Shown here: positions 14,470 through 28,796 of the stretch, one piece after another
Layout: the number at the start of each line of letters is the position of its first letter
How positions within the stretch are numbered: position 1 is the stretch's first letter
Virus record (IMG/VR): IMGVR_UViG_3300025128_000148
Coordinates: 1 to 35,965 of that record
DNA length: 35,965 nucleotides
Reading direction: 5' to 3' (one strand)
DNA from: a virus
Position numbers and translations under genes: made by a program
The notes under the pieces: generated by a model
Told to the model about the DNA's origin: nothing
Databases searched by the model: none
Seen by the model: the letters and a program-made list of their open reading frames with translations, nothing else

Positions 14470-14505
14470 ATGTGTGAATGTTGTGGTGGCGGATGCGGTA
14501 GATAA
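14470..14505 (+). CDS. Cys-rich leader micro-ORF, 11 aa
   Basis: The best ribosome site in the neighbourhood (AGGAGG at 14459-14464) sits five bases before an ATG that opens an 11-codon frame, MCECCGGGCGR, ending TAA one base before the ATG of the next gene (TAA-A-ATG). Four of eleven residues are cysteine. It may be a leader peptide whose termination feeds reinitiation at 14507, or a real micro-protein. The alternative is that the ribosome site serves GTG 14474 in the other frame, with nine-base spacing. Confidence 0.4.
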   Translation: MCECCGGGCGR

Positions 14506-14506
14506 A

Positions 14507-15076
14507 ATGAAACAAAATTGGTACATGTGGTTATGTTCTATAATTTTAATCACATGTGTTCTAATAATAGGCTTTCAAAAAAAATCTTACGCTGAAACAA
14601 ATACGGTGTCGAGTACGGTTGTAACCAATTCGACACCACCTACGGCCAATGCACCCTCTATAATCAACTCGAACAGTGATATTTGTAAAGTTGGTGTAGG
14701 CGCCAGTGTGCAAAATAATGTCGTTGGTGTAGCCACAGGTGTAGTTATTGACGATGAGCTGTGTCAAAAATTAAAGTTAAGTCGATCTATGTATGCCTAC
14801 GGCATGAAGGTCGCGGCAGTATCTATACTATGTCAAGATGCTCGTGTCTGGGATGCAATGACTGATGCTGGGACTCCGTGCCCTGCACGAGGTTCTATCG
14901 GTGCTGAGGCAGCTCAATACTGGACTGATAATCCAGATGAAATTCCAGACGGTAGTAAATACAAAACAGAATATGTACAGGCGTCAAAACCTGTTGAGGG
15001 AGAGTTTACCGATGCACAAAATGTTGCTCTATTTAAAACTTTGTTTATTCTTACTACTGGTCTCCTTTTATTCTAA
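14507..15076 (+). CDS. Exported conserved protein of marine phages, 189 aa
   Basis: From ATG 14507 the protein begins MKQNWYMWLCSIILITCVLI, a good signal peptide with a likely signal peptidase I site after SYA (about residue 28). The mature part starts with a Ser/Thr/Pro-rich linker (VSSTVVTNSTPPTANAPS) and a compact domain with conserved-looking cysteines (SDICKVGVG, DELCQKLKLS, SILCQDARVWDAM, GTPCPARG), which could form disulfides in the periplasm. I recall this domain in many uncultured marine phages; its function is unknown. A GTG at 14474 would add 11 residues ahead of the signal peptide and is less likely. The 3' end overlaps the next gene by 65 bases. Confidence 0.7.
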   Translation: MKQNWYMWLCSIILITCVLIIGFQKKSYAETNTVSSTVVTNSTPPTANAPSIINSNSDICKVGVGASVQNNVVGVATGVVIDDELCQKLKLSRSMYAYGMKVAAVSILCQDARVWDAMTDAGTPCPARGSIGAEAAQYWTDNPDEIPDGSKYKTEYVQASKPVEGEFTDAQNVALFKTLFILTTGLLLF

Positions 15077-16472
15077 AGCTAATACTTGCTTACCTGATGT
15101 GGAGGGTCTTTGTACGCCAGGAGTTACAATCACAGAAGAAGAAAGTATTGTTATAACTGAAGAAGATAAAGGTACAGAAATAATCACAACCACGACTACT
15201 ACTACGACAACCACTACCACGACTGTTACTAATGAAGACTCAGGAGATATTTTAGATGGTTCTAATGGTTATGTTGGAACAGGAGATGAGGGAGATATGG
15301 ATATAGACTGGGGTGGACAAGGCTCTGCTAGTATGCCTAGTGGTTCTGGTTGTTATGCCTTAGGCACAGATAAGTGTGCACAGATTACAGGATCTGGCAA
15401 TAGCACTTCAACCATGGGTGTGTCTGGAATGGGCACCACCTTTATCATACAAAACATTGACATTTCTGATTTAGAAATAGATAAAGGTGGCCAGGTTCAA
15501 TACACAATTGAAGTAGATAAAAGAGATGCTCAAGATAGAATATACATGCACGTTACAGGATATAATGGAACTAGTTCAGTCTTTTCAGGCACTGACATCT
15601 TGTCTGAGTCTGGAATATCATCCGGCTACCAGTCTTATAACGGGTCTTTCGATTTCAGTGGTGTATTAAACAAGATTACCGTTGAAGTGGGTGGTCGAGA
15701 TATAAACCTGGCTATCGGACCCCTGTTTGATGATGTTACGGTCAATGTGTTTTACAATGTTATCAATACTATCATTACGCAACAGATAACTAGTGTTGAA
15801 GAAATATACTATCTAGATCTCTTTGACCCCACAGAACTAGATTTTGTAGAGGAAGTATTTGAATTAAACGATGTTGTGGTGGATGATGCAGGTGATATAG
15901 ACTTTGCACCAATAGAATCACAGCCTGAAGAAATATCATATGAAACTGTGGAGCTAGAAATAGCAGAGTTAAATATAGATATACCTGAGCCTGAGGTAGA
16001 AGTTGTTCAAGTTGAGAGTGAAATAGAAGCAGAGATTGAGTTAGAAATGGAGGAGATTGAAGTAGTAGAACCTGAACCAGAGGAAACTACAGAAGAACCT
16101 CAAGAAGAATCACAGGAACCAGAACAAGAAACACCGAAAACAGTACAAAAAGAAGAAGATCCAGAAGAAACGGTAGAAGAAGAGAAATCATCAGAACCTA
16201 AGGTATCAGAGAAAGAGAAAGCTGCCACAAAAATAGTCAAAAAAATTGATGATAAAGAGAGGTATGATGAAGCAGCTCAGATGAAAACATTGATTGTTAT
16301 GCAAATATTAGGTAATACTAAGACATTCTTTGAGACACAATCTACGATTGTAGATACAGATGTTAATGAATATTTAAACAAGACAATAGAAGATCAATAT
16401 GGTATTCTATTTGACATGGCTCAAGGCCAGACTATGAACAGGATGGTAAACCAACAATATGGCACAAATTGA
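15012..16472 (+). CDS. Exported Thr-run / Glu-Pro-rich protein, 486 aa
   Basis: I place the start at ATG 15012 because it gives a signal peptide (MHKMLLYLKLCLFLLLVSFY, cleavage near SKA, about residue 23). An upstream in-frame ATG at 14865 would be internal to the previous gene. After the signal comes a run of 13 threonines, then a beta-rich domain (about 80-270; FIIQNIDISDLEIDKGGQVQ, GRDINLAIGPLFDDVTVNVF), a very acidic Glu/Pro/Val linker (about 320-430) and a helical C-terminus (about 440-486). The beta domain is a family I associate with marine podoviruses. It follows the lysozyme and another exported protein, so an envelope role late in infection (lysis or surface modification) is possible, not shown. 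Confidence 0.7.
   Translation: MHKMLLYLKLCLFLLLVSFYSKANTCLPDVEGLCTPGVTITEEESIVITEEDKGTEIITTTTTTTTTTTTTVTNEDSGDILDGSNGYVGTGDEGDMDIDWGGQGSASMPSGSGCYALGTDKCAQITGSGNSTSTMGVSGMGTTFIIQNIDISDLEIDKGGQVQYTIEVDKRDAQDRIYMHVTGYNGTSSVFSGTDILSESGISSGYQSYNGSFDFSGVLNKITVEVGGRDINLAIGPLFDDVTVNVFYNVINTIITQQITSVEEIYYLDLFDPTELDFVEEVFELNDVVVDDAGDIDFAPIESQPEEISYETVELEIAELNIDIPEPEVEVVQVESEIEAEIELEMEEIEVVEPEPEETTEEPQEESQEPEQETPKTVQKEEDPEETVEEEKSSEPKVSEKEKAATKIVKKIDDKERYDEAAQMKTLIVMQILGNTKTFFETQSTIVDTDVNEYLNKTIEDQYGILFDMAQGQTMNRMVNQQYGTN
15182..15228 (+). repeat. ACN trinucleotide run encoding poly-threonine
   Basis: About 15 consecutive ACN codons (ACA, ACC, ACG, ACT mixed) just after the signal peptide of the exported 486-aa protein. 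The codons vary while threonine is kept, which argues for selection on the protein (a flexible, possibly modified linker) and not for a slipped simple-sequence repeat. Confidence 0.8.
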
Positions 16473-16971
16473 ATATGGCGGAATTAAGATATCAGGTGGT
16501 AAAATATTTATTGTACTGTCTTTGCTTGGCACCTTGGGTGGTGCTGCTTGGACAGGCTTTACATTTTACTCCGACTATCTTTCAATGAAAGAAAAGATTT
16601 TGCTCTATACTGAGCCTGACCTTTCTGGATTTGATAAAAAAATATCTCTAGTAGAGTCAGAAACAAATGCACAAATGGAGATTGTCTTACAAAAAGTTGA
16701 TGGTTTGAAGAGTGAGCTTGATATAGTTTTAGAAGAAATAAACCTTATCTCACAAGTAAGTCGAGAACTTAAAGACGATCTTAAAACAGATCTTCGTAAT
16801 ATGGAACAAGATGTTCGTCACATTACTGAGATTGTCAATGATGTAGAAGACAGACAAAAAGAAGACTCAAGAGAGATTATGGATGAAATAAAAATGATTG
16901 AAAAAAATCTTGAATTGAGTGTAGATAAAGCTTTAAATAATCCTTTATCAGGTATGAGTGCCAAAGACTAA
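16459..16971 (+). CDS. Membrane-anchored coiled-coil protein, 170 aa
   Basis: A 170-residue protein with one N-terminal transmembrane helix (IFIVLSLLGTLGGAAWTGFT, about residues 16-35) followed by about 120 residues of charged coiled coil (from SLVESETNAQMEIVLQKV to the end). PDLSGFDKKI (about 53-62) links the two. It overlaps the previous gene by 14 bases. Topology N-in/C-out or the reverse is not determined; a spanin-like or holin-accessory role is suggested by position after the lysozyme and exported proteins. It ends in a 24-base convergent overlap with the minus-strand operon. Confidence 0.65.
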   Translation: MAQIEYGGIKISGGKIFIVLSLLGTLGGAAWTGFTFYSDYLSMKEKILLYTEPDLSGFDKKISLVESETNAQMEIVLQKVDGLKSELDIVLEEINLISQVSRELKDDLKTDLRNMEQDVRHITEIVNDVEDRQKEDSREIMDEIKMIEKNLELSVDKALNNPLSGMSAKD

Positions 16972-17721
16972 ATCAAAGTATTTTTGTTGATTATCATTTA
17001 GATCCGCTAAGTTTTTAATACCACTATCATTACTACAAAGTTGATTGTATATCTCTTTGTCTTTACACCAATTTCTACCTGTCCAAAACTCAAATCCATC
17101 GTATTTTGACTTATACTTACTGCTATTTTCATAGCTATAGGAGAAGTAATAATACTTGTAATTTTGATCTATGCAGTATTTTATCTCGTATAAAGTAGCA
17201 TAGGTTCCCATACCTAACTTGTCATTTTCATAATCCCAAGCAAACTGACCTGTCATAAAGTGATCGCCTTCCATCATCGCTTCAGTAAAAGCAATAGGTC
17301 TCTCTTTGTAATAGTATACAAAATACTTCCAATCAATAGGATCATCACGCATAAACTCTTCACTTTCCCTCTCATGATTTACTTCGTAATAATTTTTGTG
17401 TTGTATATATCTTTTGTAAATCTCAGCTATATCATCTTCTAAATGCCAAGGTAATTTATCGTATGTAGATACATAAATATCTTTTTTATTTAAAGTATAC
17501 TTTTGTTTTTTTGAGAATGTAAAGTCCGATAGCTGCAGTCTACTGGACCTGGCGTTAAGCCAGGTTATGTGATTTATCTTGGTGTAATACCAAGACAGGG
17601 GTAACCAGCCATTATTAAAAGCATAATCATACTCACTCTTATCAAACTCTGCTAAGGGTAGACTATAAAGTAAATCGTAGTGTGTTAATTTACCTGTGAT
17701 ATGATCAAAGAATATTTTCAC
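16948..17721 (-). CDS. Arginyl-tRNA-protein transferase-like (ATE/Bpt, GNAT-fold) protein
   Basis: A 257-residue protein that resembles bacterial/eukaryotic aminoacyl-tRNA-protein transferases. The N-terminal third has the order NNGWLPLSWYYT (about 36-47), W-x-NARSSRLQLSDFTFSKKQKY (about 54-75), matching the family pattern of a GW...Y segment then a basic RxxRLxxxxFxxSxxQ stretch. The C-terminal third, LGMGTYATLYEIKYCIDQNY KYYYFSYSYENSSKYKSKYDG (about 169-209), matches the GNAT-like LGTY...EI.W....YY.LGY.I....KM.YK core. The cysteine pair that binds an Fe-S cluster or metal near the N-terminus in known enzymes is not seen. Known members attach Arg or Leu to N-terminal Asp/Glu to make a degron. 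Overlaps its upstream neighbour by four bases (ATGA). Confidence 0.55.
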   Translation of the reverse strand: MKIFFDHITGKLTHYDLLYSLPLAEFDKSEYDYAFNNGWLPLSWYYTKINHITWLNARSSRLQLSDFTFSKKQKYTLNKKDIYVSTYDKLPWHLEDDIAEIYKRYIQHKNYYEVNHERESEEFMRDDPIDWKYFVYYYKERPIAFTEAMMEGDHFMTGQFAWDYENDKLGMGTYATLYEIKYCIDQNYKYYYFSYSYENSSKYKSKYDGFEFWTGRNWCKDKEIYNQLCSNDSGIKNLADLNDNQQKYFDLVFGTHT

Positions 17722-18356
17722 TCGGGACGTTCAAACTGAGTCATATAAGAATCATCCGTTGTTGTGTCCTCTTCTCTTGTGTTTTCTACTGTGTAGAAGT
17801 TTTGATCAATCTTATATCCAGGGTTTTTAGTTAGTCTTTCTTCCATAAAAGCATCATCATACCAGATAGTTCTATTGTTAGGATAGGCAAAGAAGTTACC
17901 ATCATCCATACGAAACATGTGTGCACACTTATGTTCAGGGTCCTCGCTAAAGTTTGTATCTAACATTCCTGCTTTGTTTTCCCATGCCCAATCTATTGTA
18001 AACATATAAGTGCCTTTTCTTTTTGTGCCTTTGTAATCTACAAGTTCTGCTCTACAGTTAGCTAATCTATTTCTTCTTTGAACATCAACATAAGGTGAAA
18101 AACAATCCCAATACTGGTGTATGTTTAAGGGGTGTTTTGGTGCATCTTTTTTCCAACAGAACGCATGGATAGGTCTTCTGGTCCAATTGACACCGTTAGG
18201 TAATAAGCATTCAAATAACAATGCTCTTCTCTCTAAACTATTGACAGTATGCACATCAGCAAACGTAAATTCACCATGACCTTTTTCATGATCAAATAAA
18301 TACTCGTTTCTAATATATGCGCTAAAAGGTGGTAAATTATGATTAAGATATGCCAT
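17718..18356 (-). CDS. Conserved hypothetical protein, 212 aa, coupled to the ATE-like gene
   Basis: A 212-residue soluble protein starting MAYLNHNLPPFSAYIRNEYL. It is rich in aromatic residues, His and Asp (RPIHAFCWKKD, HQYWDCFSPYVDVQRRNR, YMFTIDWAWENKAG, NNRTIWYDDAFMEE). No known motif is visible. The ATGA overlap with the ATE-like gene implies coupled translation and perhaps a joint task, and the pair follows a helicase gene on the same strand. I recall homologues in marine podoviruses without assigned function. Confidence 0.65.
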   Translation of the reverse strand: MAYLNHNLPPFSAYIRNEYLFDHEKGHGEFTFADVHTVNSLERRALLFECLLPNGVNWTRRPIHAFCWKKDAPKHPLNIHQYWDCFSPYVDVQRRNRLANCRAELVDYKGTKRKGTYMFTIDWAWENKAGMLDTNFSEDPEHKCAHMFRMDDGNFFAYPNNRTIWYDDAFMEERLTKNPGYKIDQNFYTVENTREEDTTTDDSYMTQFERPE

Positions 18357-18369
18357 AAGCTATATTAAC

Positions 18370-19815
18370 CTATACTAGCCAGCTTTTCAATTCTTCACCT
18401 AGAACTTCTGTCGCAATGTCAATCTTAGATCTCAAGCATTGAACTATTTTTTCATCAATGGTTTTTTCTGCTATAAAATCAACATAGGTGACCTTTTGAT
18501 CCTGGCCTATTCTATGTGCTCTATCTTCAGATTGTAGTCTTATCTCTAAGTCGTAACTGTTGCTGTAATACACGACAGTATGACTAGCAGTAAGAGTGAG
18601 TCCATAGCCTCCGGTCTTTGGGTTAGCGACCAGATATTTAAGATCATCTTTTTTATCTTGAAACTTAGATATAATTTGATCCCTCTCGTCCACAGGCGTA
18701 TCACCAAAAAAGCTAGATACAGTTTCTGTTCCATATTTTTTCTCCAATTCTTTTGTTATTGTTTTAATATCATGTCTATAGTTTGCCCAGATAATAACTT
18801 TATCATCTGTCTCCTCTAAAAAATTTAAAAGTTCTTTAACACGATTGTTTTTTATTTCTACGATCTTGCCATCATCTGTAGTCATGTGACCACACGTGAT
18901 TTGATGCAGTCTCATCATTTGAGTCAAAGCAGAGAATGCTGTCATAGAGTTACCTTCTAATTCTGCTACAGCAAATTCTTTCATCTCTTTGTAAGCTTTT
19001 ACCTGGTCAGGTGTAAGTTCAATGAATCTTTTTGTGTATAGTTTTTCTGGTAAGTCCAAGCAATCTTCTTTGAGAACTCTTGTAGAAAAAGCATCTAGCT
19101 TACCATTTAGTTCATCCAATCTTATATATTTAATTACATGATTGTAACTATGTGCGCCACCTGCCGCGTTTCTTTGTGCCATTAATGCGTATCTTGATTT
19201 GAAAGCCCAGAAAGAAGTGTAGCCTAATAGATCCTCGTTAAGAAAAGCACACTGTGTATACAAATCTAATGGTGATTTTGTGACAGGTGAACCTGTTAGT
19301 ATTCGTCTATACTTTGCAAACTTACCAAGCTTGATAGCACTTTTTGTTCTACTAGCTGTGGGTGATTTGATTGTTGTAGATTCGTCTACTGCCATCATGA
19401 CTGCGTGTGATTTTAAAAACTCTAATGCCGCTGCATATCCTTTTGCAGTGCTCAAAGCTTCTACGTTAATAAGAAATATTGAGAGTTTCTCAGAGAAAAC
19501 TTTGAGAGAATCTAATTGTTCTTTTTGTTTTTTATTAGGTGTTGGTGTCCAACACACAATGTTGTGTTCTATTCTATCAGGTAAGTGTTTAGGTAATTCT
19601 GATATCATCCAGTTACGATAAACACCTTTGGGTGCAACAATCAAAGCACCATTAATTTTTCTTTTTTCATGCAACATGGCCAGGTTATCAATCAAGACTT
19701 TTGATTTACCTGTTCCCATCTCCATAAAAAATGCGTAAGAAGTTTTATCCCAAGACTTTTCTAAGGTATCTTTTTGATGTGAAAAAGGTTGTGTTTTATA
19801 AATATATTCTGTCAT
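18370..19815 (-). CDS. SNF2/SF2-family DNA helicase (translocase)
   Basis: A 481-residue superfamily 2 ATPase. Motif I is MEMGTGKSK (residues 31-39), motif II is DEST (144-147), motif III is LTGSPVTKSPLDLY (about 172-185), and the C-terminal RecA domain has GGYGLTLTAS (motif V) and QSEDRAHRIGQ (motif VI, about 435-445), the SNF2 signature. No extra DNA-binding domain is fused, so this is the compact phage form. It probably remodels DNA-protein complexes or assists replication and recombination. First gene of the leftward operon; CTAGGAGAAA precedes its ATG and a promoter lies about 30-55 bases upstream. Confidence 0.9.
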   Translation of the reverse strand: MTEYIYKTQPFSHQKDTLEKSWDKTSYAFFMEMGTGKSKVLIDNLAMLHEKRKINGALIVAPKGVYRNWMISELPKHLPDRIEHNIVCWTPTPNKKQKEQLDSLKVFSEKLSIFLINVEALSTAKGYAAALEFLKSHAVMMAVDESTTIKSPTASRTKSAIKLGKFAKYRRILTGSPVTKSPLDLYTQCAFLNEDLLGYTSFWAFKSRYALMAQRNAAGGAHSYNHVIKYIRLDELNGKLDAFSTRVLKEDCLDLPEKLYTKRFIELTPDQVKAYKEMKEFAVAELEGNSMTAFSALTQMMRLHQITCGHMTTDDGKIVEIKNNRVKELLNFLEETDDKVIIWANYRHDIKTITKELEKKYGTETVSSFFGDTPVDERDQIISKFQDKKDDLKYLVANPKTGGYGLTLTASHTVVYYSNSYDLEIRLQSEDRAHRIGQDQKVTYVDFIAEKTIDEKIVQCLRSKIDIATEVLGEELKSWLV

Positions 19816-28139: not shown

Positions 28140-28796
28140 ATGGACAAACAGATTAGTTATGACTTATTCACGCCCTTCGGACCACGGATCATGCGTAGTT
28201 CGATCCCGCAGAATATAGTCGATTTAGTAAATGAAAAGGCAGATTCTATCTTAGGAGATGACCAGAAGTCAAATGATTTAGATTATAGTTCTAATTTAGC
28301 AGGAAACGTAAAGAAAGAAGTCGCTTTGTCTTTGGGTGAAGTGAAGTCGTTGGAGACGGTTATTAATAAATTAGTGACGGAGTATATCATGAAGACTGTT
28401 GCGGATCAATTTAAACCTGAAAATACGAACATGACCTATACATCTTGGGTAGTGAGTCAGTATGCAGGTGACTTTAATCCTATGCATATTCATGACTCGC
28501 AGCTATCAGGTGTATTCTTTTTAAAAGTTCCGCCAGGCTACGAAGAAGAATATCGAAGAGAAGATCATTATCCGAGTGTGGGTTGTTTAGAATTTTTAGG
28601 GAGTGTGCCAAATACATTTAGTAAGCATAACTGGATGATTAAACCACAGATCGGTGACTTGTATATCTTTCCGAGTTGGTTGTCTCACCAGGTCTATCCG
28701 TTTCGAAGTGAAGGAGAGCGTAGATCCATGGCATTTAATATACACCTACGAGCCAAGGCTCTTGGAACAGATGTTGGTAAAGGTATCGATAAGTAA
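28140..28796 (+). CDS. 2-oxoglutarate/Fe(II)-dependent oxygenase
   Basis: A 218-residue protein of the putative 2OG-Fe(II) oxygenase family found in many marine phages. DFNPMHIHDSQLSGVFFLKV (about 111-130) supplies the first iron ligands in the HxH(D) segment (His116, His118/Asp119) followed by the typical SGV-FYL strand. GDLYIFPSWLSHQVYPF (about 172-188) supplies the distal His183, and EGERRSMAFN (191-200) the arginine that binds 2-oxoglutarate. Substrate unknown: protein, nucleic acid or a small molecule. AAGGAG precedes the start; the stop overlaps the next gene (TAATG). Confidence 0.85.
   Translation: MDKQISYDLFTPFGPRIMRSSIPQNIVDLVNEKADSILGDDQKSNDLDYSSNLAGNVKKEVALSLGEVKSLETVINKLVTEYIMKTVADQFKPENTNMTYTSWVVSQYAGDFNPMHIHDSQLSGVFFLKVPPGYEEEYRREDHYPSVGCLEFLGSVPNTFSKHNWMIKPQIGDLYIFPSWLSHQVYPFRSEGERRSMAFNIHLRAKALGTDVGKGIDK

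Follow-up and report, generated by a model that had tools for sequence, protein, structure and literature searches.

The window analysed here, the whole 35,965-base stretch of viral DNA, carries on its minus strand two overlapping genes that encode proteins of 257 and 212 aa, exactly as an earlier note made from the sequence alone had placed them (Table 1). We refer to the first as the transferase, for its likeness to the aminoacyl-tRNA-protein transferases ATE1 and Bpt, and to the second as its partner. The earlier note had further described an ATGA coupling of the two genes; the overlap is real, but its letters read GTGA, comprising the partner's stop and the GTG start of the transferase. 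Immediately upstream of the partner, on the same strand, lies a gene for an SNF2-family helicase. The virion genes of the window record are related to those of DSL-LC04, HTVC027P and HTVC023P. Elsewhere in the window, we observed a gene for a 2OG-Fe(II) oxygenase and, on the plus strand, two genes in different frames with an overlap of about 210 bases; each of the two has relatives in other contigs.

Table 1. Positions of the features discussed, in the window unless a locus is given
Feature	Position	Strand	Basis or remark
257-aa transferase homologue (ATE/Bpt-like, zinc-finger-free)	16948..17721	-	GTG start; Pfam ATE_C, AF2 model, Foldseek, phage-only clade
Partner, T4-GC171/phrog_3704 family, 212 aa	17718..18356	-	phrog_3704, E 5.5e-55
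Gene overlap, partner stop and transferase GTG start	17718..17721	-	reads GTGA
SNF2-family helicase	18370..19815	-	Pfam SNF2-rel_dom, 3.5e-21
2OG-Fe(II) oxygenase	28140-28796	+	Pfam 2OG-FeII_Oxy_5, 3.1e-21
Overlapping reading frames	14474-15076 and 14865-16472	+	different frames
PSSM2_175 of P-SSM2 (T4-GC171)	L042:4001-4669		directly precedes PSSM2_176
Small gene downstream of distant transferase	L022:8662-8883, L029:8665-8862, L475:5338-5556		conserved core IYEP..TPKG.G.IWLVT.YG

Relation of the 257-aa protein to ATE1 and Bpt

At the level of sequence, the resemblance of the 257-aa protein to the ATE/Bpt enzymes exceeds chance. The protein matches Pfam ATE_C (PF04377) with 35.7 bits and an E value of 1.5e-8, the curated cut-off being 25, and all 14 relatives scanned match the same family (E ≤ 0.01, best 8.4e-14). 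A profile of the phage family, compared with the sequences of the PDB, found yeast ATE1 as its best match (E 1.5e-9). By profile, the closest cellular sequences (best 61 bits, in 398 Pseudomonadota genomes) are those of Bpt, the bacterial aspartate/glutamate leucyltransferase (PRK01305, 'arginyltransferase' in NCBIfam), with which the phage protein has the GNAT core and the order of motifs in common. The NCBIfam Bpt models gave at best 38.3 bits, far below every NCBIfam cut-off (170 for the equivalog PRK01305).

The predicted structure points in the same direction. The AlphaFold2 model (pLDDT 82, pTM 0.83), searched against the PDB with Foldseek, matched human ATE1 first (8tzv; E 4.5e-9, TM 0.60 over the query), then yeast ATE1, and after these MprF/PGS, FemX and Aat; all 50 matches listed are tRNA-dependent transferases of these four kinds. 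Aat (the L/F-transferase), FemX and the MprF/PGS synthases thus have the same superfamily fold (Foldseek E about 1e-5), yet the FemAB, MprF and Aat sequence families gave no match to the 257-aa protein in our Pfam and NCBIfam scans. The ATE/Bpt-like order of motifs proposed in the earlier note is borne out by these data, and a structural search that could have turned up an unrelated fold returned ATE1 instead. Sequence profiles and the modelled fold agree in making the 257-aa protein homologous to the GNAT portion, at the C-terminus, of the ATE1/Bpt aminoacyl-tRNA-protein transferases.

Bpt carries a metal-binding cysteine module, as ATE1 does. Aligned with a bacterial Bpt, the phage protein starts at the first core strand of Bpt; the CSYL that comes before this strand in Bpt is missing, and so is the CHLCRQCLSC loop. 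CxxCxxC and CxY[LI] are both present in 32 of 32 cellular Bpts, whereas CxxC occurs in none of the 98 distinct phage members; in an alignment of 26 phage representatives with 24 Bpts, all four Bpt cysteines are gone from the phage side, and the 257-aa protein has no match to Pfam ATE_N. The missing cysteine cluster, which the earlier note had seen in one protein, is therefore a property of the whole family. We considered a concealed N-terminal extension bearing the cysteines and rejected it, because the open frame spans no more than 260 codons and is closed three codons upstream of the start. The N-terminus itself, (V/M)KIFFDHI, is common to nearly all relatives with small changes.

The core has fared differently from the module. 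G38, R61, Y105, G172, Y192, Y203, K204 and W218 are invariant in all 24 Bpts, and the 26 phage representatives retain them with few or no exceptions; K204, W218 and R61 stay invariant even among phage members of about 30% identity. Many other Bpt-invariant positions are replaced in the phage members, for example the GFRRSG stretch and the invariant D at alignment column 250. The gene is under strong purifying selection, with dN of about 0.05-0.08 and dS of about 1.0-1.4 against loci L005 and L007. In yeast ATE1, whose metal site is CX2C...CC, a zinc finger is built from the cysteines, two of which flank Y22, the residue that touches A77 at the 3' end of the tRNA (PMC10115844). Unlike ATE1, the phage protein has neither this metal site nor the variable domain and is half as long. 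Since a large natural clade does without the cysteine module, the role of that module in ATE1 and Bpt becomes directly testable.

We found at least 235 relatives of the transferase in IMG/VR. The cultured-phage collection held no transferase of the window's type, and pelagiphages HTVC027P and HTVC023P have the partner gene with no transferase found. A pattern search of GTDB contigs confirmed no phage-type enzyme, the plasmids searched gave no significant match, and a profile search of 398 Pseudomonadota genomes returned no phage-type member, only Bpt-like matches of 20-61 bits; divergent phage copies score 262-324 bits with the family profile. In the tree, the phage members form one clade, which a branch with 100/100 support sets apart from Bpt. 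In these searches, the clade is virus-only. A Bpt filed under 'Acinetobacter phage MD-2021a' (L358, CAKLQH020000030.1) was rejected as a phage source, as its neighbourhood of ftsK, trxB, aat, bpt and tufA is that of a bacterial chromosome, and it served as a cellular reference. A partial literature search found no paper on a phage-encoded ATE/Bpt enzyme.

The partner family and its names in databases

The 212-aa protein, described in the earlier note as having no known function, is not an orphan; it belongs to the T4-GC171/phrog_3704 family and is wrongly named in databases. It matches 113 records of phages, for the most part cyanophages and pelagiphages, in which it is annotated as PurM, ferredoxin or hypothetical, and it is 65% identical to a Synechococcus phage protein. 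Strong purifying selection acts on it as well (dN about 0.012-0.016, dS about 1.0-1.4, against L005 and L007).

Neither of the two names fits the proteins scanned. AIRS and AIRS_C domains are absent from the window partner, from the PSSM2_175, CL131, HTVC027P and HTVC008M proteins, and from 23 aligned members. Likewise, no ferredoxin domain (Fer2 and kin) was found among the Pfam matches of 23 partner members at E ≤ 0.1 or in those same four phage proteins. In P-SSM2, PSSM2_175 stands directly before the true purM, PSSM2_176 (T4-GC172), which carries both AIRS and AIRS_C. We therefore rejected PurM as the identity of the partner, and ferredoxin too. Most likely, the PurM label passed to this gene from the genuine purM beside it in P-SSM2 and was copied thereafter.

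This mislabelling reaches the literature. A purM gene was counted in 45% of 82 HTVC023P-type pelagiphage genomes (PMC9599517) and was also reported in cyanophage CL131 (PMC6293099). The published purM of CL131 is a member of the T4-GC171/phrog_3704 family, and the HTVC023P-type purM is the partner family at least in the cultured HTVC023P and HTVC027P, the latter domain-scanned. The gene so counted is thus not PurM in the annotated proteins scanned, and claims about phage purine metabolism that depend on it need rechecking.

The AF2 model of the partner (pLDDT 73.5) has an all-beta core and a low-confidence tail. Its best PDB matches, the Tudor domains of SETDB1 and Spindlin (TM about 0.24), do not go below E 0.05; its three significant viral structure matches, all unnamed or uncharacterised, are probably members of its own family. 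In many pelagiphage-like contigs (e.g. L037, HTVC008M), the partner is flanked by the genes for the two ribonucleotide reductase subunits, large and small, and in others it comes after DNA polymerase A.

Pairing of the two genes

The earlier note had named co-occurrence of the two genes in other phage genomes as a check, and they do occur together elsewhere. The transferase stands directly behind the partner in 91 of 98 distinct transferases, with a 1-base overlap in 45 pairs, a 4-base overlap in 42 and a 3-base spacer in 4, so that 87 of the 91 overlap. Of the remaining seven, one is on a truncated contig and six, all from one distant branch, have no partner. A search seeded with the partner found the transferase behind 75 of 77 close partner relatives, in contigs that overlap with the transferase-seeded set. 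The pairing persists down to about 30% identity, and the pair sits in different genomic settings: loci L013-L018 have no other detectable gene in common with the window. Close partners (88% identical) stand without a transferase behind them in L349 and L350, an apparent loss of the transferase.

The reverse does not hold. Partners that lack a transferase far outnumber those that have one, and among HTVC008M- and HTVC027P-type partners, most of which are found between ribonucleotide reductase genes or behind DNA polymerase, the transferase follows in 0 of 151 with room for it. Dependence thus runs in one direction: the transferase stays with the partner, whereas the partner can do without the transferase. 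As it occurs more often alone, the partner must have its own function.

The partner tree shows pairs at three places, namely the window clade, the 347-kb contig L020, and L019; its starred branches force at least four trait changes, which are compatible with repeated gain and repeated loss alike. The pairing is therefore not a single inherited accident. It is found in at least two and probably three separate partner lineages; two places are solid and the third only likely because the row of L019 on the tree is long and partial. Searches seeded with the divergent pairs L019 and L020 yielded no new lineages.

The helicase, which the earlier note had joined to the two genes as a possible cassette, adjoins only 11 of 67 pairs; we rejected it as a third member, since it probably does not belong to the conserved unit. 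The suggested role of that cassette in anti-defence or host takeover found no support either, neither the transferase nor the partner matching any PADLOC model. The helicase itself matches many defence helicases in PADLOC, as SNF2 domains generally would.

The distant branch (loci L021-L031; six distinct proteins) has transferases of 224-226 aa and no partner gene, even in records of 221 kb and 206 kb, so the partner is not strictly required. In the loci inspected, namely L022, L026-L029 and L475 with its second copy, an overlapping gene of 65-73 aa follows the transferase. It has no family match above cut-off and may be an alternative partner. Both of the long records, G003 (221 kb; L022 and L475) and G004 (206 kb), carry two transferase copies; in G003 these lie in blocks with identical neighbour order, as after segmental duplication.

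Candidate functions of the pair

We suggest that the locus may encode a phage-specific, zinc-finger-free aminoacyl-tRNA transferase of the ATE1/Bpt branch with the T4-GC171 protein as its dedicated partner, a reading in which our belief and doubt are evenly balanced. Its most likely reaction would be to move an amino acid from charged host tRNA onto the N-terminal amine of a protein. The T4-GC171 protein, translated together with it, would serve either as the acceptor or as a subunit that takes the place of the missing zinc domain in holding or presenting the substrate. We infer catalysis, the use of aminoacyl-tRNA, a protein N-terminus as acceptor and physical contact between the two proteins. 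Aminoacyl transfer from tRNA to the N-terminus of a protein is suggested by the fold, by the retained core and by the relatives, and the strictness of the pairing is what suggests T4-GC171 as the acceptor or substrate-holding subunit. The absence of the zinc finger that touches the tRNA 3' end in ATE1 counts against a tRNA transferase.

Products of Bpt go to ClpS/ClpAP degradation. A bolder extension of the same reading, which we think has a smallish chance of being right, is that marine phages possess a metal-free, two-component system of protein aminoacylation, in which a minimal ATE-like transferase, with T4-GC171 standing in for the zinc domain, would re-label proteins during infection. 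Were the two-component reading true, the 'purM' of the literature would be the second half of a protein-modification machine.

Among the alternatives, an aminoacyl-tRNA-dependent transferase with another acceptor (a lipid, a peptidoglycan precursor, a small molecule or a peptide), in the manner of MprF, FemX and the tRNA-dependent peptide modifiers, is unlikely but deserves the most weight. MprF/PGS and FemX fit the model well (E about 1e-5 to 2e-6), and the phage protein has lost the zinc module that putatively binds the substrate in ATE1/Bpt. However, the sequence profiles side with ATE_C rather than with the FemAB or MprF families, the 257-aa sequence has no obvious membrane segment, and the partner is predicted to be a mostly beta protein.

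Many GNAT folds use acyl-CoA, and the phage protein might be an acyltransferase that switched to acyl-CoA or another donor and abandoned tRNA. The missing cysteine loop, with which ATE1 touches the end of the tRNA, would agree with this, as would a match to the Pfam GNAT family Acetyltransf_6, at 22.7 bits barely over its cut-off of 22. Only 1 of 14 relatives shares that match, in contrast to 14 of 14 for ATE_C; moreover, core positions conserved in the tRNA-using Bpts are retained and the PDB fold matches listed are tRNA-dependent enzymes, which makes such a switch quite unlikely.

Loss of the zinc module and the replacement of several Bpt-invariant positions (the GFRRSG stretch and the D at column 250) could also mean that the fold is catalytically dead, a tRNA- or protein-binding decoy beside a partner that is the active component. 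We regard this as very improbable in view of the strongly conserved core, the very low dN relative to dS and the invariance of K204, W218 and R61. Mere hitch-hiking of two functionally unlinked neighbours, for which speak the commonness of overlapping co-directional genes in phages and the many partners without a transferase, has equally little to recommend it, given that 91 of 98 transferases are paired across deep divergence and in backgrounds where no other window gene was detected, that the partner tree demands at least four changes, and that the other neighbour, SNF2, is so seldom retained.

Small, very basic proteins, one type of which ends in WKC, recur beside the partner in many contigs (L352, L186, L333 and others) and could be candidate acceptors or DNA-packing proteins.
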